Translations under genes and position numbers: made by a program
From: Triatoma infestans
Taxonomy: Eukaryota; Arthropoda; Insecta; Hemiptera; Reduviidae
DNA length: 64,000 bases
Direction of reading: 5' to 3'
Assembly (NCBI GenBank): GCA_011037195.1
Contig: JAAEAF010002533.1
Span: forward strand, 32,904 to 96,903
Notes under the pieces: generated by a model
The model's input: the letters and a program-made list of their open reading frames with translations, nothing else
Told to the model about the DNA's origin: nothing
Databases searched by the model: none
Shown here: piece by piece, positions 946-63,150 of the stretch
Position numbering within the stretch: position 1 is the stretch's first letter
How the letters are laid out: each line of letters begins with the position of its first letter

Positions 946-1055
946 TTTTTTTAACATTTTTATTGATTTTTACAACACTTTGTTGTGGTGGTTGGTTCCG
1001 CAGAGCTGGAAAGCATCAGAGACATTTTCCGTGGTAGCCTGCTTCATTTTGTGGT

Positions 1056-1093
1056 CATCGACCGGTTTCGGGCGTTCGCCCATCTTCAGGATG
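1056..1093 (-). ncRNA. Type I hammerhead ribozyme motif (HHR1, left arm)
   Basis: Minus strand reads CATC, CTGAAGA, T, GGGC-GAAC-GCCC, GAAA, CCGGTC, GATG. This satisfies the hammerhead consensus: core CUGANGA, a perfect 4-bp helix II with a GAAC loop, G12-A13-A14, A15.1 ... U16.1, and C17 as the cleavage nucleotide. The flanking CATC and GATG form helix I. One extra U lies between A9 and helix II; extra residues at that point are known in some natural hammerheads. Helix III is minimal: one A-U pair closed over CCGG, or an intermolecular ACCGGU duplex. Confidence 0.85.
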
Positions 1094-1463
1094 CGTTTTT
1101 CAGACAGTGTGAGACAACACAGACTCGCACAGAGTAACTTAGTTTCTAAAAAAAAAAAAGTGCGTATTTGGATGAGATATGTGAGTGATGATGTGACATG
1201 GTTTGTGGGATGCATAATAAAAAACCTAATTACATAAAAAAAAACATAATTAGGTATACATGCTTGCTTACGTGAAAAAGTGAAAGAATGACTGGAATTT
1301 CTTAATTCTTTGGAACTGGAAAAACCTAATTATATTTCCCACCCATCAGGCCACATCCCTTTACCTAGTTTAAGAGTTTAGTATTTTTTTAAAAAATACC
1401 CCTCAGTTAGTGTGAAACTAAGTTACTCTGTGCGAGTCTGGATGTCACACTGTCTGAAAAACG

Positions 1464-1501
1464 CATCCTGAAGATGGGCGAACGCCCGAAACCGGTCGAT
1501 G
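1464..1501 (+). ncRNA. Type I hammerhead ribozyme motif (HHR1, right arm)
   Basis: Plus-strand mirror of the left-arm motif, with all catalytic positions intact: CATC 1464-1467, CTGAAGA 1468-1474, the helix II hairpin, GAAA, CCGGTC ending at C1497 (predicted cleavage after it), and GATG 1498-1501. The core variant CTGAAGA rather than CTGATGA is allowed because position 7 is free. Confidence 0.87.
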
Positions 1502-2640
1502 ACCACAAAATGAAGCAGGCTACCACGGAAAATGTCTCTGATGTTTTACAACACTAACCAACTTTTGCAACAACTAAAATAGATAACGTGTGAACAATGT
1601 GTGTGTTGGCTGAAGGCCACGGCACACATGATCTGATCTACATGAACGACTGCCATCCAGCGATGGCAGCCATAATAAATCATTAAGGATGGAGTCTTAT
1701 AACAGTCCTACAAGACAGCCAAATACTTAAGCAGATGATCGCGAGGCCATCGATGCTTCAGTCGTCGTGATGGGTTACAAGGGAGAGTTGTGGTTGAGAG
1801 CGTCTGGGATAATTAGACTTGAATGAGAGGATAATTGATAATGGAACTGCAGATAACGGGACTTGGCTATCGCAGAAACGAAGGGAATTTTAAGGTCGTT
1901 ATGGATGGTGTGATTGGAAACGTAGAAGGGAGCACTGACTATGGTGCGAAGGATTTTGGACTGTAGTGATGGAATGTGATAAAGATTTGAATGTCTGGCT
2001 GTCCCATATACGAGTAGTTCGATTCCGTGAGTCCAAATAGGGGCTAATAGAGAATAATATAGTTGTCGTTTGTTATGTAATGAAATTTCGAACGTTTGCC
2101 TAGAAGTTTTTTTGTCAAGATTGATACCAAGGTAACGAACTTTTGTGACGGGAGGTAAAGGAATATGGTTGAAATATATAGGAGGAAGGGTTTTTCGATT
2201 TAATGTGAAGACTATGTAATTAGATTTGAGTTGATTCACCTTTATTCTCCACTTTCAGAGTCAGAGTTCGAGGATGTTTAGATGAGATTGAAGATGTCGA
2301 GTTGACATGATGGGATCATTATGTGGGGATAGGATGGCCGTATCATCGGCGAAGGTTAAGGTGACAGTATTAAAATGTAGTGGGAGGTCAGCAGTATATA
2401 TTGTGTAAAGAAGGGGAGCAAGCATGCTTCCTTGTGGAACGCCAACGTGAATAGGAAATTTGGGAGAAAATGAGGTTCCTTGGACTTACATGAAATGGCG
2501 ATCCTTTGAGGAAGGAAAGATATGAAGTGGAAGGAAGGATGCCCTTAAGTTTCCACAATAATCCCGAGTGCCATATTCGATCAAACGCTTGAGAGATGTC
2601 CACGAAGGCTCACGGGCAGTATTACTTCCGCTCAAGGGAG

Positions 2641-4026: not shown

Positions 4027-4101
4027 AATTGTGGTGGTTGGTTCCGCAGAGCTGGAAAGCATCAGAAACATTTTCCGTGATAGCCTGTTTCTTTTTGTGG
4101 T

Positions 4102-4130
4102 CATCGACCGGTTTCGGGCGTTCGCCCATC
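4102..4130 (-). ncRNA. Truncated hammerhead motif (HHR1)
   Basis: The minus strand keeps helix II (GGGC-GAAC-GCCC), GAAA, CCGGTC and GATG, but the CTGANGA half is missing where the arm stops at 4130. It should be inactive. Confidence 0.7.
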
Positions 4131-4392
4131 GTGCGTACATGGCTGATGTATGTGAATGTGTGTGAAAGGTGAAATGTGGAATGAAATGCATAATTATAAA
4201 ATAGACTAGCTTATATGGATTACTTACTCAACATAGCTATGTATCTATACCATCGTATGATCATTCAGCACGAATTCTATCGTTTCTTATCAGCAACTAT
4301 TCATAGTGGCCCTCGGCTGACACTTTCGCGTTATTTCGCTCTGTTATAAATTAATAAATAGAAATAATAAGATGGTATGGATAAATAATTAT

Positions 4393-4948: not shown

Positions 4949-5182
4949 TTATCAAAGTAAAATCTCCTTCAAAAAACACAGTTAAAGTTATACAATCCCA
5001 CTCATTGATGTTCCTATTTTAAAAAGGGAACGTCTTTAAAGGACTGAAACATGTGTTTTCCCATTCAGGCAGCAACACCCCTCTTAAAACCTAGTTCCAT
5101 CATAACAAAGACTTTTTAAAATCCAATGTATCAACTGTATTTCCTCTGTGCAAGTCTATGTTATTACACTGTTTAACAAAAA

Positions 5183-5220
5183 CATCCTGGTGATGAGCGA
5201 ACGCCCGAAACCGGACGATG
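5183..5220 (+). ncRNA. Decayed hammerhead motif (HHR1)
   Basis: Recognisable but mutated: the core reads CTGGTGA (A6 changed to G), helix II loses a pair (GAGC against GCCC), and the cleavage triplet reads GAC rather than GTC. It should be inactive. Confidence 0.7.
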
Positions 5221-5267
5221 ACCACAAAAAGAAGCAGGCTATTATGGAAAATGTCTCTGATAATTGT

Positions 5268-7522: not shown

Positions 7523-7540
7523 TATATATATATATATATA

Positions 7541-7665
7541 GAAGGTGTCCTAAGGTATATGGATAACGACTTTTTATCGGAAACTAAGATAGCTAGAAAA
7601 AAACTAAAAAAACATGTGTCCCCGTAGTTTTCTGTTAGAAATTCAAATTTAATTTGCAAATTTGT
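7541..7665. repeat. Single arm of the foldback element seen at 43.3 kb
   Basis: Starts GAAGGTGTCCTAAGGT and continues through GTGTCCCCGTAGTTTTCTGT and AAATTTAATTTGCAAATTTG. This equals one arm plus the centre of the palindromic element at 43271-43530; the second arm has been lost. Confidence 0.75.
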
Positions 7666-7950
7666 TTTGGTGCTTCTGGAAAGAAGCGAGATACAAGCAC
7701 CAACTTCATTTTTTCAAATTGGGAGGTGTCGTTTTTATTTAAGAAATAGATTCCTCTATTTTTTGTAAGAAAAAAATTTACTTGAACGGTTTTTTTTTTT
7801 CTGTGAGCGATATTTTACAAGTTATAAATGAAAACATGATTCTTATAAGAAATTTCAAAATGATAATATTGTAACGGATTTTTGATTGAATAAGAAGAAA
7901 AGTACTATTTTATTATTAAATTTTAGTCCTCATTAATTACAGATCTTGCT

Positions 7951-9404: not shown

Positions 9405-9605
9405 TTATTGCGCTGGGACCTGAAAGATCTGTTGTGCCCCCCGGAGCCTTCTCCAATGCACAGCCGGCCTCCAAGCAGTTTTCTCTAACTACACATAACA
9501 CTGCCCATCACAGGAAAGTAGTAGTACAGGCTCCTAGGAAGAGAAAATCTAAGGGCAGCATGCTGGATTCGAACACTCCGGCGTGCTACCACTGAGCTAA
9601 TCCCT
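9405..9605 (-). mobile_element. tRNA-derived SINE (SINE1), copy 1
   Basis: On the minus strand the element begins GGGATTAGCTCAGTGGTAGC, a near-perfect tRNA head with an RNA polymerase III A box (TAGCTCAGTGG). A B box follows (GTTCGAATCC). The body, with GGAGGCCGG and an AGGCTCC-like block, is shared with copies at 32.2, 33.1, 38.4, 42.9 and 62.9 kb. It is not a tRNA gene: the cloverleaf between the boxes is shortened and no anticodon arm forms. About 225 bp upstream of the head also match upstream sequence of the 32-kb copy. Confidence 0.85.
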
Positions 9606-18957: not shown

Positions 18958-19058
18958 TTGTGGTTGGTTACGCAGAGGTGGAAAGCATCAGAGATATTTT
19001 CGTGAAAGCCTGCTTCTTTTTGTGGTCATCAACTAGTGTATCAACTAAATTTGCTCTG

Positions 19059-19229
19059 AGCAAGTCTATATTATTAAAATGTTTGACAAGAAAACATCAT
19101 GAAGCCCGCAAAACCGGTCGATGACCATATAAGAAGAAGCAAGCTATCATGGAAAATGCCTCTGATGAACGTGTTCTGTTTAGTGGTGATCATTGAGATT
19201 AGTTTTATTTTTAATAAAAACAACAAATT
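19059..19229. repeat. Left copy of a ~170-bp target site duplication
   Basis: Direct repeat of 20126-20294 with few mismatches, starting AGCAAGTCTATATTATTAAA and ending in AATAAAAACAA(C/G)AAAT. It flanks the LINE 19230-20125 exactly, so it is best read as an unusually long target duplication. It also contains a decayed hammerhead motif. Confidence 0.85.
19085..19118 (+). ncRNA. Decayed hammerhead motif (HHR1)
   Basis: Keeps CATC, CCGGTC and GATG, but helix II and part of the core are deleted (CATCATGAAGCCCGCAAAACC). Its duplicate lies near 20152-20185. Inactive. Confidence 0.65.
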
Positions 19230-20125
19230 TCCTGATTGATGAAGTACTAAAAGACTTTAAAAGACTTGCCCGAGAAACGAGATTAGGGTTCTGGAAATTA
19301 AGGCCGACAAGTTTCTCAATCCTAGCTTTCGCAGACGACCTGGTTCTCATAGCGGATAATGGAGAAAAACTACAAGAGAACATTAATATACTGACAGAAG
19401 AGCTCAAAAAGAGAAAGATGATAATTAACACCTCCAAAACTAAATGTATGACAGTGTCTAGGAGTGAAGAACAAGTACAAATAGAAATAGACGGAAAACG
19501 GATAGAACAAGTGTCTGTGTTTATATATCTGGGCGTGATGCTGAGTAAGAGCGGCAAAGTCAAAAATGAAATCAATGCAAGAGTAGATGCCGCAGAAAGA
19601 CTATTCTACGCAATAAACAGAAACTTTCTCAGTAAAAAGGAAGTAAGAAAGGACACAAAAATGGCAGTCTTCCGTTCGACCTTCGTTCCAACGCTGACGT
19701 ATGGAAGTGAATCATGGGCTCTAAGAGAAGCGGAACGTAGCCAACTCCAAGCCGCAGAAATGAGGTACTTAAGAAAAGTGGCAGGAAGAACCAGAAAAGA
19801 CAGAATCCGCAACACCACCATTAGAACCACGCTTAAAAGTGAACTAGTATCTCAAGTTATTGAGAGAGGTCAGCTACGATGGTTCGGACATGTGTGTAGG
19901 ATGCGTGATGAGAGGTACCCGAAGAAAGCATGCGAAACGCGAATGACTGGTAGAAGGCCCCGTGGAAGAAAGAGAATCATCTGGGAGGATAACCTCCGAG
20001 AGGCCATAACAAAAAGAGGGGTCAGATAGGAGGAGGCGAAAAACTTAGCCAGAGATAGGAAAAGATGGAGCTCCTTCTGCAAACCCCGACACCCATGAAG
20101 AGGTCTACGACTAAGTAAGTAAATA
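19230..20125 (+). mobile_element. 5'-truncated RTE-like LINE (RT core to C-terminus)
   Basis: The longest clean LINE reading frame on the plus strand: open to 20029. Counting from Met 19193, AFADDLVLIAD (catalytic RT box) is at residues 45-55, IINTSKTKCM at about 85-94, VFIYLGVML at about 110, a TYGSESWALR block at about 163, and the C-terminal LRWFGHVCRM...GRRPRGRKRIIWEDNL signature at about 230-270. A stop at 20027-20029 replaces what is usually a tryptophan; the frame then continues EEAKNLARDRKRW to about 20095. The 3' tail is (TAAG)n-like (20111-20125). The N-terminal endonuclease and RT fingers are missing. It sits between the ~170-bp direct repeats. Confidence 0.88.
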
Positions 20126-20294
20126 AGCAAGTCTATATTATTAAAATGTTTGACAACAAAACATCATGATGCCCGCAAAACCGGTCGATGACCACAAGAA
20201 GAAGCAAGCTATCACGGAAAATGTCTGTGATGAAGGTGTTCGGTTTAGTGGTGATCATTGAGATTAGTTTTATTTTTAATTAAAACAAGAAATT
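20126..20294. repeat. Right copy of the ~170-bp target site duplication
   Basis: See 19059-19229. It restores the right end of HHR1 copy 3. Confidence 0.85.
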
Positions 20295-26669: not shown

Positions 26670-26984
26670 AACGGATGTTCAACTGGGCATCCGTTCGGGT
26701 GCTATGGGCAGGCCTGTGGCACCCAGGGGGCATAGCACAATAGACCTGATTAGGTCGCAGTGCGTTGGGCCCCCGATTAATAATAAAAAAAAAAAAAAAA
26801 AAAAAACATAACCCTACCCTCCCCAAAATTGTCCTTAAATGAATTTTGCCCGAAATCTTTGTGTCTGATGCGGTTGGTAGTACCTAAACAGAATACCAAG
26901 TTTAAGCTTCCTGCAACTTTACTTTTTTAAGATATTCTTTTCACACACATACACACGAAAACTATTTTCTAAAATCTAGTATTT

Positions 26985-27110
26985 TATCCGTCATAGCATG
27001 CATATTCATTTTGTTCCCAACCGGTTTCAGATTTTCATCCAACGTCAAAGCAAATTCACCAAGTTCGTCTAGAGTGTTCACTTCAACGTAATGTTTCTGT
27101 TACACTCACA
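26985..27110 (-). mobile_element. HHR2 element, single arm
   Basis: Left-type arm of hammerhead family 2: TATTTTATCCGTCATAGCATG, the CCGGTTTCAG-ATTTTCATCC block, then GCAAATTCACCAAGTTCGTC and the ACTTCAACGTAATGTTTCTG middle also seen at 60.04 kb. The minus-strand ribozyme core is mutated (TTGACGT for CTGANGA). No inverted partner. Confidence 0.65.
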
Positions 27111-27359
27111 CTTGTTGGTTTGTTGGTTGTATATATGCGCGGGAGGTTATAAGGTTATGTTACTATGTATGGGTGCTTATTGACAAAATGGAATTATTAT
27201 AAATTATGATTAGACATTAGAAAATAGTGCATAATAAATAGCATGTTTTGAAGAATACTTTATAATTAAATTTTAATAGTGTTATTAAGTATGCTCAGTG
27301 TTTTATCAAGTCATTTTTATTAGGGGGAGGGGGATAAGTTATTTCAGGAGTATACTGTA

Positions 27360-27935
27360 GAATAAGAATAGATAAATTCTTCAGATGCTCTATCACTTTA
27401 GCCCACAAATACATTAACACTATTAACAAATTATACACCAAACTTAAGACCCTACTCCCGACAAATTACAATCAGATCTCGTTTACCAGATAGACTGTAC
27501 ACAATGTCCAGCTGTTTATGTTGGTCAAGCTACACAATACTTAAAAAATAGAATGTACCAACATGAATACAACTGCAAAAATAAAAAAGAAAAGGACAAC
27601 ATTACTGCACTGACGAAACATTTTAGGTGGAAAATAATCATAAATTTGATTTTTCTAAAACAAAAATATTAGCAAAAAAAAAAACTAACAGGAAAAAAGA
27701 AAACAACAATAAATGATATATATCAAAAGAAATAAATTTTCTGTTAATTTTCGTAATGATACTATGAAATTATCAGCGTTGTATAACGGTTTTTTTCAAA
27801 ACATGACCTTCTAGAATTCTCTTTCACCTACCCCACCCATAAAAATTTCCTCTAATCCCTTTCACTTGCCTATTCAAACCACATTACTTTCTGTAGATGA
27901 TTTAAGACAAGACACTAGTAACTTTTAATTTTCCT
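27360..27935 (+). pseudogene. Penelope-like element: GIY-YIG endonuclease remnant
   Basis: From 27473 the plus strand reads SDLVYQIDCTQCPAVYVGQ, the zinc-binding CX2C just before the GIY-YIG core (VYVGQ at 27514-27528). LKNRMYQHEYNC and ITALTKHF follow, the spacing of the C-terminal endonuclease of Penelope-like elements. A frameshift at about 27625 shifts into HKFDFSKTKILA. The upstream RT domain is absent apart from a stretch in another frame (27405-27470). Dead, but diagnostic of a Penelope-like family in this genome. Confidence 0.8.
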
Positions 27936-32020: not shown

Positions 32021-32375
32021 TCTAACCCGCAAGGGGTGTCTGTTGCATGCAGTTACTTGGGGAGTAGCGACCCCACGGCTTACCACAGCTCAGTACTCCC
32101 ATGCACTTCATCAGAACAGTACACAATACACTTAAACTACATACACTCTACACTTTACAGACAAGGGCAAACACAGTAAACAAACTAGGGTCTCCGTCCC
32201 TAGTTAATTGGCAAAAGCCAAGGGAGAAGGAAGAGATTAGCTCGAATCCAGCAAGCTGCCCTTAGATTTTTTTCTTCCTAGGAGCTTCTACAACTCACTG
32301 TCCAGTGATGGGCAGTGTTATCTGTAGCTAGAGAACACTGCTTGGAGGCCGGAAGGCACAATAGATTGATTCTTC
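32021..32375 (+). mobile_element. SINE1 copy 2 with its upstream repeat
   Basis: 32021-32220 is the unit also found upstream of SINE1 at 9606-9835. The SINE follows (about 32221-32375), with an internal deletion joining the A-box start GATTAGCTC directly to the B-box end CGAATCCAGC, so the pol III promoter is lost. The body (AGCTTCTACAACTCACTGTC, GGAGGCCGG) is intact. Confidence 0.75.
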
Positions 32376-38269: not shown

Positions 38270-38745
38270 AAGTCGTAGATCTTTGTATATATATGTAGTT
38301 GATATATCACAAAAACATTAAGTAAAATGGTACTTCCGGTTGTGGATTTTTTTGTTTAATTTAAGGCGCTTTAATTTCTATGGTCATTAGTGCCCAGTCC
38401 TTCTCCGTGCACTGCCGGCCTCCTGACAGTGTACTCTAGCTACAGATAACACTGTCCATCACCAGGGGTTGTTAGGAAGAAAAAAAAATCTAAGGGCAGC
38501 ACAGCTGGATTCGAACTCATGTCCTCCGCGTGGGAGTCCAGTGCGCTAACCACTGAGCTAATCCTTCCCTGTAGATCTTTCTATATGTAGTGAGTCGTTT
38601 TCAAGAAAAGTGCAAAAAGTGAAAAAATTATTAAGTAAAATGATACTTCCGGTTGAGGAATTTTGACAGTTTACAGTTTGTTGGATTCCCATGGTAATAT
38701 CCAAACAGAATGTCAAGTTTGAACTTTCTGTGCTATTCTTTACAC
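38270..38745 (+). repeat. Family X fragments flanking a SINE
   Basis: AGATCTTTGTATATATATGT and AATGGTACTTCCGGTTG on the left; ACTTCCGGTTGAGGAATTTT and the AACAGAATGTCAAGTTTGAA block on the right. The SINE at 38356-38572 lies between. Confidence 0.7.
38356..38572 (-). mobile_element. SINE1, copy with intact tRNA head
   Basis: The minus strand starts GGGAAGGATTAGCTCAGTGG with A box TTAGCTCAGTGG, then CGCACTGGACTCCCACGCGG, and B box AGTTCGAATCC. The body ends at GGCGCTTTAATTT-like sequence (plus orientation). Confidence 0.88.
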
Positions 38746-38784
38746 AGACATGCATAAATTCAAATAAATGAAAATTATTGAAAA

Positions 38785-39035
38785 TGTGGGTGGGTCCCCA
38801 ATGTTGGATAACATCGGTACTTTATCCGTCGTAGCATGCATATTAGTTTTGTTTCTGATCGGTTTTGGATTTTCATCCATCGTCTGAACAAATTCACTAC
38901 AACCTAAAGAAAAATTTCGTTGAAGTGAACTATCTACACGAACTTGGTGAGCTTGCTCTGACGATGGATGAAAATCCGAAACCGGTAAGGAAAAAACTGA
39001 TATGCATGCTACGACGGATAGAATACCAAATGAAA
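38785..39035. mobile_element. HHR2 hammerhead-armed foldback element, copy 2
   Basis: Left arm 38785-38890 and right arm about 38935-39035 are inverted copies: TCCGTCGTAGCATGCATATT against GCATGCTACGACGGATA. Each arm carries a family-2 hammerhead; only the right one is intact. Very short middle (about 45 bp). Confidence 0.78.
38957..38992 (+). ncRNA. Type I hammerhead ribozyme motif (HHR2), best copy
   Basis: CTGACGA (38958-38964), T, helix II GGAT-GAAA-ATCC (perfect 4 bp), GAAA, CCGG, U16.1, and A at position 17 (H17 allows A). Proximal helix I is short (CT/AA-G with mismatch). Helix II has two base-pair changes relative to HHR1 (G-C, C-G to A-T, T-A) that keep pairing. Confidence 0.75.
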
Positions 39036-39292
39036 ATTATATTAAAAAATAAAATAAAATAAAATCGTAATAGTTTCAGATTGCCTTTACATTAACCCAT
39101 GACAGTGAAATTCTATCCCCTGACATGGATCCTGTCATGGCAACCCATAATCTACAATTACATCTTCATATTCTTGAACCATGGATCCGCCAATGGCGGT
39201 TCGAAATAAATGAATTCAAATCCCAACACGTAGTATTCACTCACTCTAAACGGAAAATCTCTTCCTCCTCTTCACTTCAATAGTGCTATCAT

Positions 39293-39567: not shown

Positions 39568-39699
39568 ATCATCATTCGTGTAATGAACCAGGTACGATAC
39601 CTTGGACTACCTCTAGACAAACGACTAACATGGACCCCCCCCCCCATAACAGAATCAAACGATGAAACGACTGCAAACTGTGATATATAAAGGCTAAAA

Positions 39700-39835
39700 A
39701 AGACTCCAAGATATCTTCCGTGATAGCCTGCTACCGGTCATCGACCGGCGTTCGCCCATCATTAGGATCTTTTTATCAGTGTGATAACATAGATTTGCAC
39801 AGAGCAAATTTATTTGGTAAAGGTGTATCAATAAA
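39700..39835. mobile_element. HHR1 fragment in jockey
   Basis: TCTTCCGTGATAGCCTGCTA, a decayed hammerhead (minus strand) in which GAAA and part of helix II are deleted (GACCGGCGTTCGCCC), then the family's GATTTGCACAGAGCAAAT middle. Ends not resolved. Confidence 0.65.
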
Positions 39836-41689: not shown

Positions 41690-41740
41690 AATGAAGACAT
41701 CAGAGACATTTTCTAATGATAGCCTGCTTCATTTTGTGGT

Positions 41741-41778
41741 TATCGACCGGTTTCGGGCGTTCGCCCATCTTCAGGATG
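41741..41778 (-). ncRNA. Type I hammerhead ribozyme motif (HHR1)
   Basis: CATC, CTGAAGA, T, GGGC-GAAC-GCCC, GAAA, CCGGTC, GATA on the minus strand. The core is intact; the outermost helix I pair is lost (GATA for GATG). Confidence 0.83.
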
Positions 41779-41876
41779 CGTTAGTCAGACAGTGTGATTA
41801 CACAGACTTGCATAGAGCTAATTCAGTTTACACACTCACCGAAACCAAATTTGCTCTGTGCAAGTTCAATTCATTT

Positions 41877-42790
41877 ATTTCAAAATATTATATATACATA
41901 TATATACAGTTTTTACATGGAGTTGCAGTTTATACTATAACCTCCTAACTATTTACATTAATAAAAAGTTAAACAAACGAAACAGTTATATTAAGGGGGG
42001 AAAAAAGTGGCAAAAACCCCAAGCAATACAATCTCCCTTTATATGAGCATGTTTCTCACCCTGCGATGCCTGTAATCAACTCCAACGTCATAGTCCCCTA
42101 TGCTCCTGCAAAGCGAGTTATTACTAAGACTAGTAAAGGCAAAAAATTTTTCAGTTGCAAGGAAAATGCATACTTCTATTTCGTCCATTTTGCAATACTC
42201 GTGCAAATCCTTAATTCTAGTATACCGTGGCGAGTTTGTTGCTAACCTTAAAAACTTGTTTTGGATTATTTGCAGGCCATCGATATTAGTTCTGCAGGTA
42301 ATACTCAAGGAGGGGCAAGCATACAATAGCATGGGTTTGACAACTACCTTATATAGCAACAGCTTGTTGCTAGGGGCCAGTTTAGACTCTCTGCAGAATA
42401 GCGGAAATATACCTCGGATCGCCGCCTTGCCTTTGTTAATACGTTCCTTTACGTGAGGAGTAAAGGTAAGTTTACGGTCGAGAGTGACACCTAGATAGCG
42501 AACGGAGCTAGACCAAGGCACTGCCTGCCCTTGGAAGCGTACTTCTTTCCAAAGTATGGGTCTTCGCTTGGAAAATAAAATGCGCTTCGGTTTTGCTGCT
42601 GTTAATTTTAATTTTCCACCTATCACAGTATCTGCTGATGCAGGCCATTGCTTCTGACAATCTGAGCGCAATTGTGTCAATTCTCCATGAGGAAGAAAAG
42701 AGAGCAACGTCGTCAGCATATAAGGCCAAGTTAACGTTTTTAGGGTTAGGCAGCGTATTGAAATATATAAGAAAGAGCACCGGGCCGATG
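41877..42790 (-). mobile_element. 5'-truncated jockey-like LINE nested in HHR1
   Basis: Insertion bounded by a perfect 14-bp duplication GCTCTGTGCAAGTT (41863-41876 and 42791-42804). Reading the minus strand: IGPVLFLIYFNTL, ALYADDVALFSS (YADD at 42709-42720), CDRWKIKINSSKTEA, then a frameshift near 42595 into ILFSKRRPILW. SSVRYLGVTLDRKLTFTP, KVVVKPMLLYACPS and a C-terminus ending at 42039 follow. The 3' UTR is 41877-42038. It is better preserved than the other jockey copies and probably represents a distinct jockey-like lineage. Because the frame runs on into the hammerhead arm upstream of 42790, an ab initio gene caller could produce a chimeric protein here. Confidence 0.88.
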
Positions 42791-42830
42791 GCTCTGTGCA
42801 AGTTTATGTTATCACACTGTCTGACAAACG

Positions 42831-42868
42831 CATCCTGATGATGGGCGAACGCCCGAAACCGGTCGATG
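42831..42868 (+). ncRNA. Type I hammerhead ribozyme motif (HHR1), consensus copy
   Basis: Matches the family consensus at every position: CATC 42831-42834, CTGATGA 42835-42841, T, GGGC-GAAC-GCCC, GAAA, CCGGTC with C17 at 42864, and GATG 42865-42868. This is the best candidate for a cleavage test. Confidence 0.9.
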
Positions 42869-42937
42869 ACCACATAAAAAGAAGCAGGCTATCAGGGAAA
42901 ATATCTCTAAATATATAAATCATAATAACTATAATTT

Positions 42938-43171
42938 AGAGGGGGAGGGATTAGTTAAGTGGTTAGCGCGTTGGACTACCACACGGAGGTCCTGGGTTCG
43001 AGTCCAGTGCTATCCTTATATTTTTTTTCTTCCTAGGAGCCTCTACAGCTCACTGTTCGGTGATGGACCGTGTTTCTGTAGCGAGAGAACACTGTCCGGA
43101 GGCCGGCAATGCACTGAGAACGCTCCGGGCGCTAATGACCATAGCGCCTTAAATTACACACACAAAAAAAC
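42938..43171 (+). mobile_element. SINE1, near-intact copy
   Basis: Head GGGATTAGTTAAGTGGTTAG (A box TAGTTAAGTGG) with B box GGTTCGAGTCC, a T-rich linker, then the body with GGAGGCCGGCAATGCACTGA, GGCGCTAATGACCATAGCGC and an A-rich tail. Perfect 11-bp target duplication AACTATAATTT (42927-42937 and 43172-43182). The reference copy for the family. Confidence 0.92.
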
Positions 43172-43270: not shown

Positions 43271-43530
43271 AATATACAGAGTGTTCCAAGGTACATGACC
43301 CCAAGGATAACGACTTTTGCTCGGAAACTAAGACAGCTAGAAAAAAACTAAAAAATATGTGTCCCCATAGTTTTTTGTTAGAAATCCAAATTTAATTTGC
43401 AAATTAAATTTGGATTTCTAACAAAAAAACTACGGGGACACGTATTTTTTAGTTTTATTTTAGCTATCTTAGTTTCCGAGAAAAAGTCGTTATCCATATA
43501 ACGTGATCCACCTTGGGACACCCTGTATAT
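43271..43530. mobile_element. Near-perfect 260-bp foldback MITE
   Basis: Ends ATATACAGAGTGTTCC and the complement ATATACAGGGTGTCCC. Arms of about 125 bp meet at AATTTAATTTGCAAATTAAA with almost no spacer. It would extrude as one long hairpin. AT-rich flanks are consistent with a TA target. A single arm is present at 7541. Confidence 0.85.
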
Positions 43531-45234: not shown

Positions 45235-45385
45235 TTGGTTGTTGTTGGTTCCGCAAAGCTGGAAAGCATCAGAGATATTTTCCGTGATAGTCTTTTTGGT
45301 GGTCATTGACTGGTTTCGGGCGTTCGCCCATCAACAGGATGCGTTTGTCACTGTGATAACATAGATTTGCACAGAGTAAATCTAA
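45235..45385 (-). mobile_element. HHR1 element, left arm only
   Basis: TTGGTTCCGCAAAGCTGG leader and arm, with the minus-strand hammerhead at 45304-45341 mutated at A6 (CTGTTGA) and in helix I. The right arm is absent. Confidence 0.75.
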
Positions 45386-53085: not shown

Positions 53086-53269
53086 TTGTGGTTGGTTCCG
53101 CAGAGCTGGAAAGCATTAGATATATTTTCAGAGTATATCAACTAAATTTGCTCTGTGCAAATCTATGTTATCACACTGTTTGACCAAAAAGCATCCTGAT
53201 GATCGGCGAACGCCTGAAACCGGTCGATGACCACAAAAAGAAGCAGGCTATCATTGAAAATATCTCTGA
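53086..53269. mobile_element. HHR1 element, short copy
   Basis: Leader GTGGTTGGTTCCGCAGAGC, a deletion of most of the left arm, then the middle AAATTTGCTCTGTGCAAAT and the full right arm. Imperfect duplication TAGTAGAACCGGTAA (53071-53085) and TAGTAGAGAACCAGTTA (53270-53286). Confidence 0.78.
53192..53229 (+). ncRNA. Type I hammerhead ribozyme motif (HHR1)
   Basis: CATC, CTGATGA, T, then CGGC-GAAC-GCCT, GAAA, CCGGTC, GATG. The catalytic core is intact, but the closing helix II pair is C-T instead of G-C, which should weaken it. Confidence 0.78.
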
Positions 53270-53395
53270 TAGTAGAGAACCAGTTATATAAATACTGAAG
53301 CGGTATCTAGACGAAAGCTTAACTTTTCAACTCTCCCAGAATTCTCCATAAATAAATTTTGCTGGAGAAATATTTCATATAAATGTGATAGGCAC

Positions 53396-59065: not shown

Positions 59066-59204
59066 TTACAACAATTTACATAGTTATAATTTACTTGTAA
59101 TTTTTACTAAATTTATCTTACTTCAATAAAATTTATAGCCATACACTAAAACTAAATACGACACTTGAAGGAAGTTTCCCGAGAATCCAACGAAAATCTA
59201 ATTT

Positions 59205-59470
59205 TTTCTGGTATTTTATCCGTCGTAGCATGGATATTTCTTTTGTTCCTGACCGGTTTCGGATTTTTATCCATCGTCCGGTTTCCATATTCAAAGGAAA
59301 ACATTACATTGAAGTAAACTCTCTAATACGAATTTGGTGAATTTGCTCTGATGATGGATGAAAATCCAAAACCGGTCAGGAACAAAAGGAATATGCTTGC
59401 ATGATACGACGATCAAAATAACAGATATTATCCAGCATTGCGGACCCATCCAAATATTCAATAAAATCTA
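59205..59470. mobile_element. HHR2 hammerhead-armed foldback element, copy 3
   Basis: Left arm GGTATTTTATCCGTCGTAGC ... GACCGGTTTCGG and inverted right arm ACGATCAAAATAACAGATAT ..., ending at CAGCATTGCGGACCCATCC. The right hammerhead (59348-59377) has an intact CTGATGA core and helix II GGAT-GAAA-ATCC, but G12 is changed (AAAA for GAAA). The left one has CGGACGA. Confidence 0.78.
59348..59377 (+). ncRNA. Hammerhead motif (HHR2), one core substitution
   Basis: CTGATGA, T, GGAT-GAAA-ATCC, AAAA, CCGGTC. The G12 to A change should cripple catalysis; everything else fits. Confidence 0.68.
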
Positions 59471-59969
59471 ATTTATTCGAAGAAAAACAAATCTCAACTA
59501 AAGTGAAAGGTGTGCAGTAGTATAGAATGTTCAAGGAAAATTCTTTTTGTAACTTTGTACAGATAATCGCAGGAAACTGCGGGGGGGGGACAAAATTTCA
59601 GTAACGTACTCATGGTCTACCGGTTTTCTTCAAACTGGGAATTTAGCACTATAATTATATAGATTACAATATATAAGTGATCCCCCACCCCACTCCAGGA
59701 TTTCCTCATGCTGAGGTTCTCCTTAACCAAAGATCACTTTTAATTTTTCTCTCCACAATTCTTTATATCCTGGGTCTCTTCCTCCCTCGGTAAACATTCC
59801 ACCACTTCGTCCACCCATGTACCCCTCCGTCTTCCTCTTATTCTCCTTCCTTCTTTCCACCTTCCAATCAAAGACCAAACTCGGTATACTATCCTCTCCC
59901 ATCCTTCTCACATAACCGTACCACACTCTAACCGTTTCTTCTCTATTCTTTAAAGAATATTGTTCTTTA

Positions 59970-60294
59970 TCCGGTATTTTATCCGTCGTAGCTTGCATAT
60001 TGGTTTTGTTCCTGACCGGTTTCGGATTTTCATCTATTCGTGTTCACTTCAACGTAATGTTTCTGTAGTCTCACACTTGTTGGTGCTTGGTGGGAAGGTA
60101 CCTTCCCACATATATACAACCTAGAAGTGTGAGTGTAACAGAAACCTTACGTTGAAGTGAACTCTCTACACGAACTTGGTGAATTTGTTCTGACGATGGA
60201 TGAAAATCTGAAACCGGCCAGGAACAAAACCTATATGCATGCTACGACGAATAAAATACCGGATGTTAACCAGCATTGCGGACCCATCCACATT
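59970..60294. mobile_element. HHR2 hammerhead-armed foldback element, copy 4
   Basis: Left arm TCCGGTATTTTATCCGTCGT to about 60040; right arm about 60150-60294. The middle (60041-60149) includes GTTCACTTCAACGTAATGTT and its inverted partner AACCTTACGTTGAAGTGAAC, so the palindrome is nearly complete, with a centre at GGTGGGAAGGTACCTTCCCAC. TTCTTTA occurs on both sides (59963-59969 and 60295-60301). Right hammerhead at 60190-60222: CTGACGA core intact, helix II GGAT/ATCT with a G-U closure, cleavage triplet GCC rather than GTC. Confidence 0.82.
60190..60222 (+). ncRNA. Hammerhead motif (HHR2), cleavage-site variant
   Basis: CTGACGA, T, GGAT-GAAA-ATCT, GAAA, CCGGCC. U16.1 is changed to C, breaking the A15.1-U16.1 pair; probably weak or inactive. 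Confidence 0.65.
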
Positions 60295-60511
60295 TTCTTT
60301 ACTTATATTTTTTTCTCTGATTTCTTGGTTAGGCCTTCTTCTTTCCCTTTGTGAAACTCTGGCAGTTCTTTTCCAATAATCCATTCTTCGTGGATAGTAA
60401 TCTCCTCCTCAGATCGGCTGTCAACGTCCACATCACGGCTCCGCATAGCATTCTGCTTTCCACAATGGCCAAATAATTATTCGTTTTCGTGATACTACTA
60501 TCTCTAGGCTC

Positions 60512-62445: not shown

Positions 62446-62913
62446 TCAAAGTTTGAGGACTTGATTTTTTTATTAGCAGTAATTAGTAACAGAATAAATT
62501 ATTTTTTTTTCAAAGTAATCAACGTAAAAACAAAAATAAATGATAAAAAAACAAAAAGAAAATTACAATATTATGAATGACGCACATTTCAACTAATTAA
62601 TATTTATGTCAAGTGCAGTGAACAGGGGTAGGGAATTCTAGCTGTTAGGAATGTTAAATGAATAAAAATAAATAAAAAAAAAAAAAGAAGTAAGAATTTG
62701 GAGAAAAATCATCTAATAGATTGACAAGAGGCTGTGACGCAATATTCCAGATGATTTATACAAGGATTGTCGCAATGAAAATTATGGCGTAATTGATCTA
62801 TTATTAAAATAATAAAGATATGACAAAAAAATAAATAAATGTTCGTCACAATTTAAAGCTGATTATATTCAATTAACTGATGAGAAAAGGATTTCAAAGT
62901 ATGTTTTAGTATT
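62446..62913. other. AT-rich non-coding stretch
   Basis: No gene or window-wide repeat recognised. Confidence 0.5.
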
Positions 62914-63150
62914 TTTTTTTTTGTTTAATTTAAGGCGCTTCAACATATGGTCATTAGCGCCTGGAGCCTTCTCAGTACACTGCCGGCCTCCGGACAGTGT
63001 TCTCTCGCTACAGAAACACTGTCCATCATCGTACAGTGAGCTGTGGAGGCTTCTAGGAAGAAAAAAATCTAAGGATAGCACTGGACTCGAACCCGGGACC
63101 TCCGCGTGGGAGTCCAACTTCGCTAACCCCTTAGCTAATCCCTCCCCTTG
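62914..63150 (-). mobile_element. SINE1, near-intact copy
   Basis: The minus strand starts GGGGAGGGATTAGCTAAGGG with A box TTAGCTAAGGGG and B box GGGTTCGAGTCC. The body and T-run tail (plus 62911-62922) are present. Perfect 12-bp duplication TGTTTTAGTATT (62902-62913 and 63151-63162). Confidence 0.9.

Follow-up and report, generated by a model that had tools for sequence, protein, structure and literature searches.

A 64,000-nucleotide stretch of the Triatoma infestans genome (contig JAAEAF010002533.1, positions 32,904 to 96,903; hereafter the window) contains a dispersed repeat with a hammerhead-like ribozyme core, one copy of which lies at 42831–42868, and the question that it raises is what kind of element carries this motif and what the ribozyme contributes to it. 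The presence of a hammerhead-like fold within a dispersed mobile repeat of the Penelope type is supported, and we regard it as very probable that the repeat is the terminal unit of a Penelope-like element (PLE) with a minimal hammerhead, that this element inserts as pairs of arms started at two sites, and that the ribozyme is kept for some other step.

The motif is common both in the window and beyond it. Searching for CTGANGATGGGCGAACGCCCGAAAC with up to three mismatches, and with 100 shuffles as a control, we found eight matches in the window against a mean of 0.00 in the shuffles, in agreement with an earlier note on this DNA that had reported at least eight copies from inspection of the sequence. 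Four matches are exact, at 1065 (−), 1468 (+), 41750 (−), and 42835 (+); one has a single mismatch (45313, −) and three have two (4111, −; 5187, +; 53196, +). In the host genome as searched (941 Mb in 13,959 contigs) there are 15,614 exact cores (7,861 and 7,753 on the two strands) and 0 matches to the reversed pattern, and 10,828 of the cores (5,489 and 5,339) also retain CCGGTCGATG, the palindrome plus the 3′ strand of helix I; a motif scan of IMG/VR and GTDB returned 0 matches. Four of the five cores that had been listed as intact are the exact ones, but the fifth, at 53192–53229, has a C/T at the first helix II pair and is not fully intact, and the pairing described as perfect in helices I and II also fails at the outer helix I pair of 41741–41778 (a C/A mismatch). 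Among the copies described as decayed, that at 4102 is a 5′-truncated arm whose homology starts inside the ribozyme, 19085 lacks helix II, and 5183 and 45304 have mutated cores. The same list omitted the copies at 20126–20294 and 39699–39815, the inverted arms at 18958–19033 and 53086–53129, and seven arms of a second family that the family 1 profile also recovers in the window. Family 2 has a core like CTGACGA-T-GGAT-GAAA-ATCC-GAAACCGGTC, with GGAT/ATCC in helix II instead of GGGC/GCCC, and CTGANGATGGATGAAAATCCGAAAC is matched exactly 4,095 times in the genome.

The identity of the element is indicated by longer relatives. In one of these (L080, contig C132) the core bases A9-U-G are a start codon, and the core opens a frame, MGERPKPVDDHKMKQATTENVSDAFQLCGTNHHNKYG... 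(MGERPKPV...), whose phase is that of a GIY-YIG endonuclease match lying 2.1 kb further downstream; the reported open frame of 841 amino acids equals the sum of 18 residues, counted from the preceding stop to the methionine, and 823 codons. Three other loci (L030, L037, and L038) have PLE C-terminal coding sequence with the terminal unit behind it, both pointing the same way, and these loci are alike through both coding sequence and unit (95.8% over 1,579 columns for L037 and L038, and 72.6% over 1,395 for L030 and L037; the L030/L038 alignment falls in two pieces). The Pfam GIY-YIG model scores 25.3 bits in L030, with a cut-off of 22.6. Given the L080 frame and the coding linkage at the other three loci, the repeat is, as judged from its sequence, the pseudo-long terminal repeat (pLTR) and gene start of an endonuclease-containing PLE, PLEs being one of the two kinds of element in which the earlier note had said that type I hammerheads with minimal helix III occur. 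The element is very abundant, and its kind is known although the family is new. The first ~35 residues have no homologue in the protein database.

A third family (L079, G000:C1030:7301–11800) has an 808-amino-acid reverse transcriptase (RT)/GIY-YIG frame, with Pfam scores of 28.1 bits for GIY-YIG, over the cut-off, and 29.0 for RVT_1, for which the cut-off is 29.6. Its direct 434-bp pLTRs agree at 97.9%, and it further has an inverted arm, a target-site duplication (TSD) of 13 bp, and a tail of 37 nt that is confined to one side. The start codon is preceded by a minimal hammerhead, GGTA/CTGAGGA/A/GATTAT-GAAAT-ATAATC/GAAACGTT/TACC, in which helices I and II are paired in two of three copies, the copy in the 3′ pLTR having one broken helix II pair.

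The manner of insertion can be read from 67 loci around family 1 cores, taken in contig order from the beginning of a list of 100 core sites (L005 was excluded from the 68 retrieved because it is the L004 insertion again). Neighboring units within 1.2 kb are head-to-head in 38 cases, tandem in four, and tail-to-tail in four. Arms end at one of two places downstream of the A of the start codon, at ~68–70 nt where the tail is absent and at 101–109 nt in the 14 tail arms that matched a motif. In 35 of the 36 classifiable pairs the tail is present on exactly one arm, with one pair having it on neither and none on both; the 3′ ends of the other two pairs could not be judged. When tails were permuted over all 38 pairs, with unclear arms counted as tail-less, the observed value of 36 was reached in 0 of 200,000 permutations. 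There is no preference for one side (18 left and 18 right of 36), and 12 of the 24 single arms have a tail. One tail per pair thus shows that the two cDNAs (complementary DNAs) of an insertion began at different sites on the element RNA. Outer flanks are identical over at least 9 bases in 22 of 35 pairs, compared to 14 of 1,190 mismatched flanks, and at least 12 bases in 17 of 35, compared to 0 of 1,190, the commonest TSD length being 12. The pairs of both families in the window, classified by eye, have a single tail in seven of eight cases, the i/j pair having none; a script found two exact TSD pairs there (12 and 13 bp, against no more than 8 bp in 56 mismatched controls), and flank identity of 4–8 bp in the remaining six, one of which was extended to 12 bp by eye.

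Most arms that are not truncated share a 5′ end: AGTGTG or AGTGTA lies just upstream in 23 of the 31 arms that reach the unit start, with mostly different DNA beyond, and this boundary looks like a transcription start. The arms of a pair are separated by −4 to 948 bp, in some cases with captured filler: that of L045 is a piece of a LOA-type open reading frame (ORF; 78% over 157 columns), and the interiors of the L003 and L029 pairs contain similar filler (80% over 88 columns), which suggests an RNA that is captured repeatedly.

The terminal unit consists of the pLTR and the first ~70 or ~100–109 nt of the gene, and a mechanism can be proposed in which the mRNA would start near AGTGTG. The PLE protein would make a staggered cut of about 12 nt, and reverse transcription would begin internally on element RNA at both DNA ends, one start being at the outer (tail) site and the other at the inner site 31–41 nt upstream. 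Both cDNAs would extend towards the RNA 5′ end and then join head to head, sometimes with filler. A single-unit mRNA template would give two terminal units only, which would account for the many solo pairs. As for the ribozyme, it would be conserved for a step other than making the insertion template, probably either dimer- or protein-assisted cleavage by which the coding RNA loses its cap and start codon, or the holding together of two templates.

The same PLE could alternatively produce its inverted arm by self-priming on an antisense template, rather than by two initiations on the two target strands. This is the model proposed for rotifer Penelope elements (PMC3846280), and it would be in keeping with the head-to-head orientation and with the palindromes found at some junctions. 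Nevertheless, an arm copied from its partner would not be expected to give exactly one tail together with TSDs at both outer ends, some junctions hold filler unrelated to the arms, and a purified PLE protein is described as cutting and extending both strands (PMC11167929). We therefore consider self-priming unlikely and favor two initiations.

The fold of the motif raises separate questions. The CUGANGA and GAAA core elements are present together with helices I and II, one helix I pair being broken by a G/G mismatch in family 2, and one extra base sits between A9 and helix II. The description of the motif as a complete type I hammerhead is not supported, since helix III consists of ACC/GGU without a loop, the core is hidden in the minimum free energy fold of the monomer, and Rfam is silent. 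Specifically, GAAA-CCGGU-C allows no loop and thus no closed helix III in the monomer, whose predicted fold pairs the core bases C3-U4-G5 and sequesters the core. The helix III letters form the palindrome ACCGGU in five of seven family 1 and four of six family 2 aligned cores; we also observe that those of L079 (ACGU) are again palindromic. Dimer energy was considered as support for a double hammerhead, but the cofold optimum (−28.6 kcal/mol, compared to −21.2 for two monomers) is an extended duplex, and the comparison is uninformative.

Rfam 15 gave no hammerhead match over the window at either the gathering or the E ≤ 10 threshold; among its best miRNA-like matches are several inverted repeats, two of which are PLE pairs, near 19.0–19.2 and 38.8–39.0 kb. 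Silence of the covariance models on all copies is what the earlier note had named as telling against its hammerhead, and taken literally that is the Rfam outcome, but a covariance model trained solely on family 2 does find the family 1 cores, scoring 42831–42868 at 33.4 bits (E 7e-7) and the weakest of the eight, at 5183, at 15.9 bits (E 0.06). For analysis of covariation we aligned 13 arms (12 of them distinct) out of the 20 that the two families have in the window, the other seven being truncated or deleted in the core. Standard pairs occupy 86.5% of the cells in helices I and II, cells with double changes number 24 as against 10.6 in shuffles (0 of 500 reach it), the covariation score exceeds that of every shuffle, and slid versions of the helix pairing score far worse. 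These compensatory differences, together with the detection of family 1 by the family 2 model, suggest that the hammerhead structure is probably under selection even though the Rfam models see nothing.

It could be argued that the motif is kept only for the protein N-terminus (MGERPKPV) and that the fold is incidental, as the motif is coding and PKPV is common to the family 1 and family 2 peptides. However, at two helix II pairs both partners differ between the families, with no unpaired cell, while the encoded residues change (G/D and R/N); the upstream strand of helix I also differs in step between families; and in the third family the motif lies ahead of the start codon and its helices are nonetheless paired in most copies. 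Conservation for the peptide alone is accordingly a very unlikely account, and a selected RNA structure is the preferred one.

Partner arms, which were not selected for containing a core, can be scored at the predicted cleavage site of the ribozyme, between unit positions 84 and 85: 34 of 38 span the cut, three begin beyond it, and one falls short. A truncation spike at the cut was sought among the 76 pair arms, and 0 start at positions 83–86; the nearest starts are at 82 (window copy e), 87, and 88, and truncation points are scattered. With 34 of 38 partner arms crossing the cut, templates are mostly uncleaved, and the suggestion that processing is part of the life cycle of the element finds no support in these insertions. 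This agrees with results for the Poseidon element PAc of Anolis carolinensis, for which the published study describes ribozyme mutants without effect on in vitro insertion, cleavage that required the protein of the element, and no reads starting or ending at the ribozyme cut (PMC11167929). Cleavage here, if any, probably needs a dimer or a protein, and such a need is reported for other PLE hammerheads (PMC7761336, PMC11167929).

A retrozyme, in which tandem short repeats would be cut by their own hammerheads into RNA that circularizes and is reverse transcribed, is the other kind of element that the earlier note named. A short unit that is present in very many copies and has a type I-like hammerhead does recall the metazoan retrozymes (PMC7229834), but the scarcity of tandem neighbors (four, versus 38 head-to-head), the crossing of the cut by most partner arms, and the long GIY-YIG frame that begins within the hammerhead of L080 do not fit, and we judge this reading highly improbable. 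Scarcely credible is a DNA transposon (a miniature inverted-repeat transposable element, MITE, or a foldback element) whose terminal inverted repeats incidentally hold a hammerhead, which would account for outward inverted repeats with TSDs but not for varying 5′ lengths of arms, 3′ ends that differ in 35 of 36 classifiable pairs, or variable interiors, some with captured sequence. The C-terminal coding sequence of three longer members is that of a PLE, and no transposase came to light there, though no search was aimed at one.

Several observations weigh against the PLE reading or parts of it. No family 1 copy has been read whole: L080 represents 451 bases, with the frame between as reported by the search program, and the unit precedes the ORF in L080 and follows it in L030, L037, and L038, the two placements coming from different loci. 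GIY-YIG in L038 scores 22.0 bits, 0.6 under the 22.6 cut-off, the endonuclease region of L037 is frame-broken, such that the scores cover L030 and L038, and the RT part of family 1 is known solely from tblastn matches of L037 and L038 to the L079 ORF. Differences between the families by codon position (7, 9, and 13) are weakly gene-like. Single arms make up 24 of the 67 loci, 13 of 35 pairs share no more than eight flank bases, and eight of 31 arms lack AGTGT[GA] at their start, some of which (window copy b; L026) run further upstream; the transcription start and ribozyme cleavage are both steps that we infer. Two of five covariation measures do not beat shuffles, with pairs showing a double change numbering 5 versus 3.7 (113 of 500 shuffles) and pair types 8 versus 11.8 (500 of 500), and the double changes amount in essence to a single division, family 1 versus family 2. 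Finally, arms are little more alike within pairs (92.0%) than between pairs (88.7%), and the partner is the closest arm in only two of 30 cases, so that identity does not show a common source RNA for twin arms.

The palindrome and the two-cDNA insertions together invite the guess that pairing of templates is a possible function. A stronger version would hold that insertion is obligately paired, with two RNAs in one complex and a different start site for each target strand, and that the palindromic hammerhead serves mainly to pair the templates, cleavage being secondary; we think this improbable.

The positions of the elements in the window are collected below. The type of the Jockey-like element and its flanking repeat were judged by eye, and its ORF has no Pfam match. 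Arm b extends upstream to about 1335, and this sequence also precedes the unit in L080 (89.6%, 115 columns).

Table. Penelope-like units, pairs, and associated features of the window (coordinates from the first base of the window).
Feature	Position	Strand	Remarks
Hammerhead-like core, copy j (family 1)	42831..42868	+	CATC/CTGATGA/T/GGGC-GAAC-GCCC/GAAA/CCGGTC/GATG; A9-T-G is PLE start codon, as seen in relative L080; predicted cut after 42864
Copy j, PLE terminal unit, right arm of pair i/j, no tail	42791..42908	+	5′ part severed by Jockey-like insertion
Copy i, left arm of head-to-head pair i/j, no tail	41693..41836	-	
Jockey-like non-LTR element, 5′-truncated, splitting copy j	41867..42790	-	Flanked by 14-bp repeat GCTCTGTGCAAGTT, 41853-41866 and 42791-42804
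Pair a/b, one insertion	980..1543	.	Arm a 988-1149 (-) with tail; arm b 1403-1543 (+) without tail
TSD TTTTACAACACT of pair a/b	968..979 (left), 1544..1555 (right)	.	
Copy c, left arm of pair c/d, with tail	4034..4131	-	5′-truncated inside ribozyme
Copy d, right arm of pair c/d, no tail	5126..5264	+	Mutated core
Copy e, short left arm with tail	18958..19033	-	Adjoins copy f
Copy f, right arm without tail	19035..19167	+	Helix II deleted
Copy g, near-identical duplicate of 19059-19229	20126..20294	+	Behind RTE-like ORF
Copy h, decayed single arm, no tail	39699..39815	-	
Copy k, single arm with tail	45239..45384	-	Mutated core
Short left arm with tail, 53-kb pair	53086..53129	-	
Copy l, right arm of 53-kb pair, no tail	53132..53271	+	
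Family 2 head-to-head pair	38779..39027	.	Left arm with tail, right without; 13-bp TSD AAATGAAAATTAT at 38766-38778 and 39028-39040
Family 2 head-to-head pair	59205..59462	.	Left without tail, right with; 12-bp TSD AAAATCTAATTT at 59193-59204 and 59463-59474, read by eye (script framed on shorter tail gave 6 bp)
Family 2 head-to-head pair	59966..60299	.	Left without tail, right with; palindrome GGTGGGAAGGTACCTTCCCACC between arms
Family 2 single arm, no tail	26970..27111	-	
PLE-type GIY-YIG endonuclease fragment	27457..27621	+	PF01541, 24.4 bits, cut-off 22.6

Copy g is most likely part of a long target-site duplication rather than a separate PLE insertion. The segments 19059–19229 and 20126–20294 form a direct repeat of ~170 bp, 93–97% alike, that flanks an RT ORF at 19190–20029 and is TSD-like, if unusually long. 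The window also contains a LOA-type ORF whose closest named relatives are in Panstrongylus lignarius (78%) and Triatoma dimidiata (77%), and a tRNA-like short interspersed element (SINE) at 42942–43170 (GGTTAGCGCG...GGGTTCGAGTCC, so classified by eye) that recurs in diverged form at 62912–63147, 38339–38569, 9440–9574, and 32242–32359; ARAGORN called no tRNA in the window, the SINE at 42942–43170 included. A long inverted repeat at 43272–43530 (foldback/MITE-like, 86%) is related to 7533–7670 and has miRNA-like Rfam matches.

PLEs are characterized as a third class of retroelements whose mobilization is little understood (PMC11167929), and the points of most interest here are the one-tail rule and the uncleaved templates, both of which are testable with purified protein. 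The one-sided tail itself is already known; with 35 of 36 classifiable pairs having it, what was an option for one of the inverted repeats becomes close to a rule. In the literature searched, which left several primary PLE papers outside, we found neither a count of it nor a statement that it is near-obligate, and we claim no priority. Templates that are mostly uncleaved constrain the possible purpose of a conserved ribozyme.

The closest parallel is PAc, a member of the Penelope/Poseidon clade, which resembles the present element (PMC11167929) in having a hammerhead across the ORF start, with the cut 26 nt after the start codon compared to 24 nt here, and also in its two internal reverse-transcription start sites in the early ORF, its optional tail, and its RT and GIY-YIG protein. 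It differs in the position of these sites, the inner end being at about +68–70 and the outer at +101–109 (14 tail arms) here, compared to 111–118 in PAc, and in that the genomic pairs here use one site each with almost no exceptions. In the PAc study the start sites are used in vitro without a difference between strands, which needs reconciling with the one-tail rule. Penelope elements of Adineta vaga (PMC3846280) likewise have pLTRs, a head-to-head inverted pLTR, and a 31-bp tail on one inverted pLTR, as well as a pLTR reaching into the ORF, junction palindromes, captured sequence between pLTRs, and TSDs, of 8–10 bp in that case. Copy number there is very low, in contrast to the thousands of exact family 1 cores in Triatoma, where the commonest TSD length is 12 bp and the one-tail rule has been counted. 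The hammerhead itself is like the minimal PLE hammerheads that have no stable helix III and are thought to cleave as dimers (PMC7761336, PMC6155905), but it differs from these in having its helix III letters present as the ACCGGU palindrome and in the additional base between A9 and helix II.
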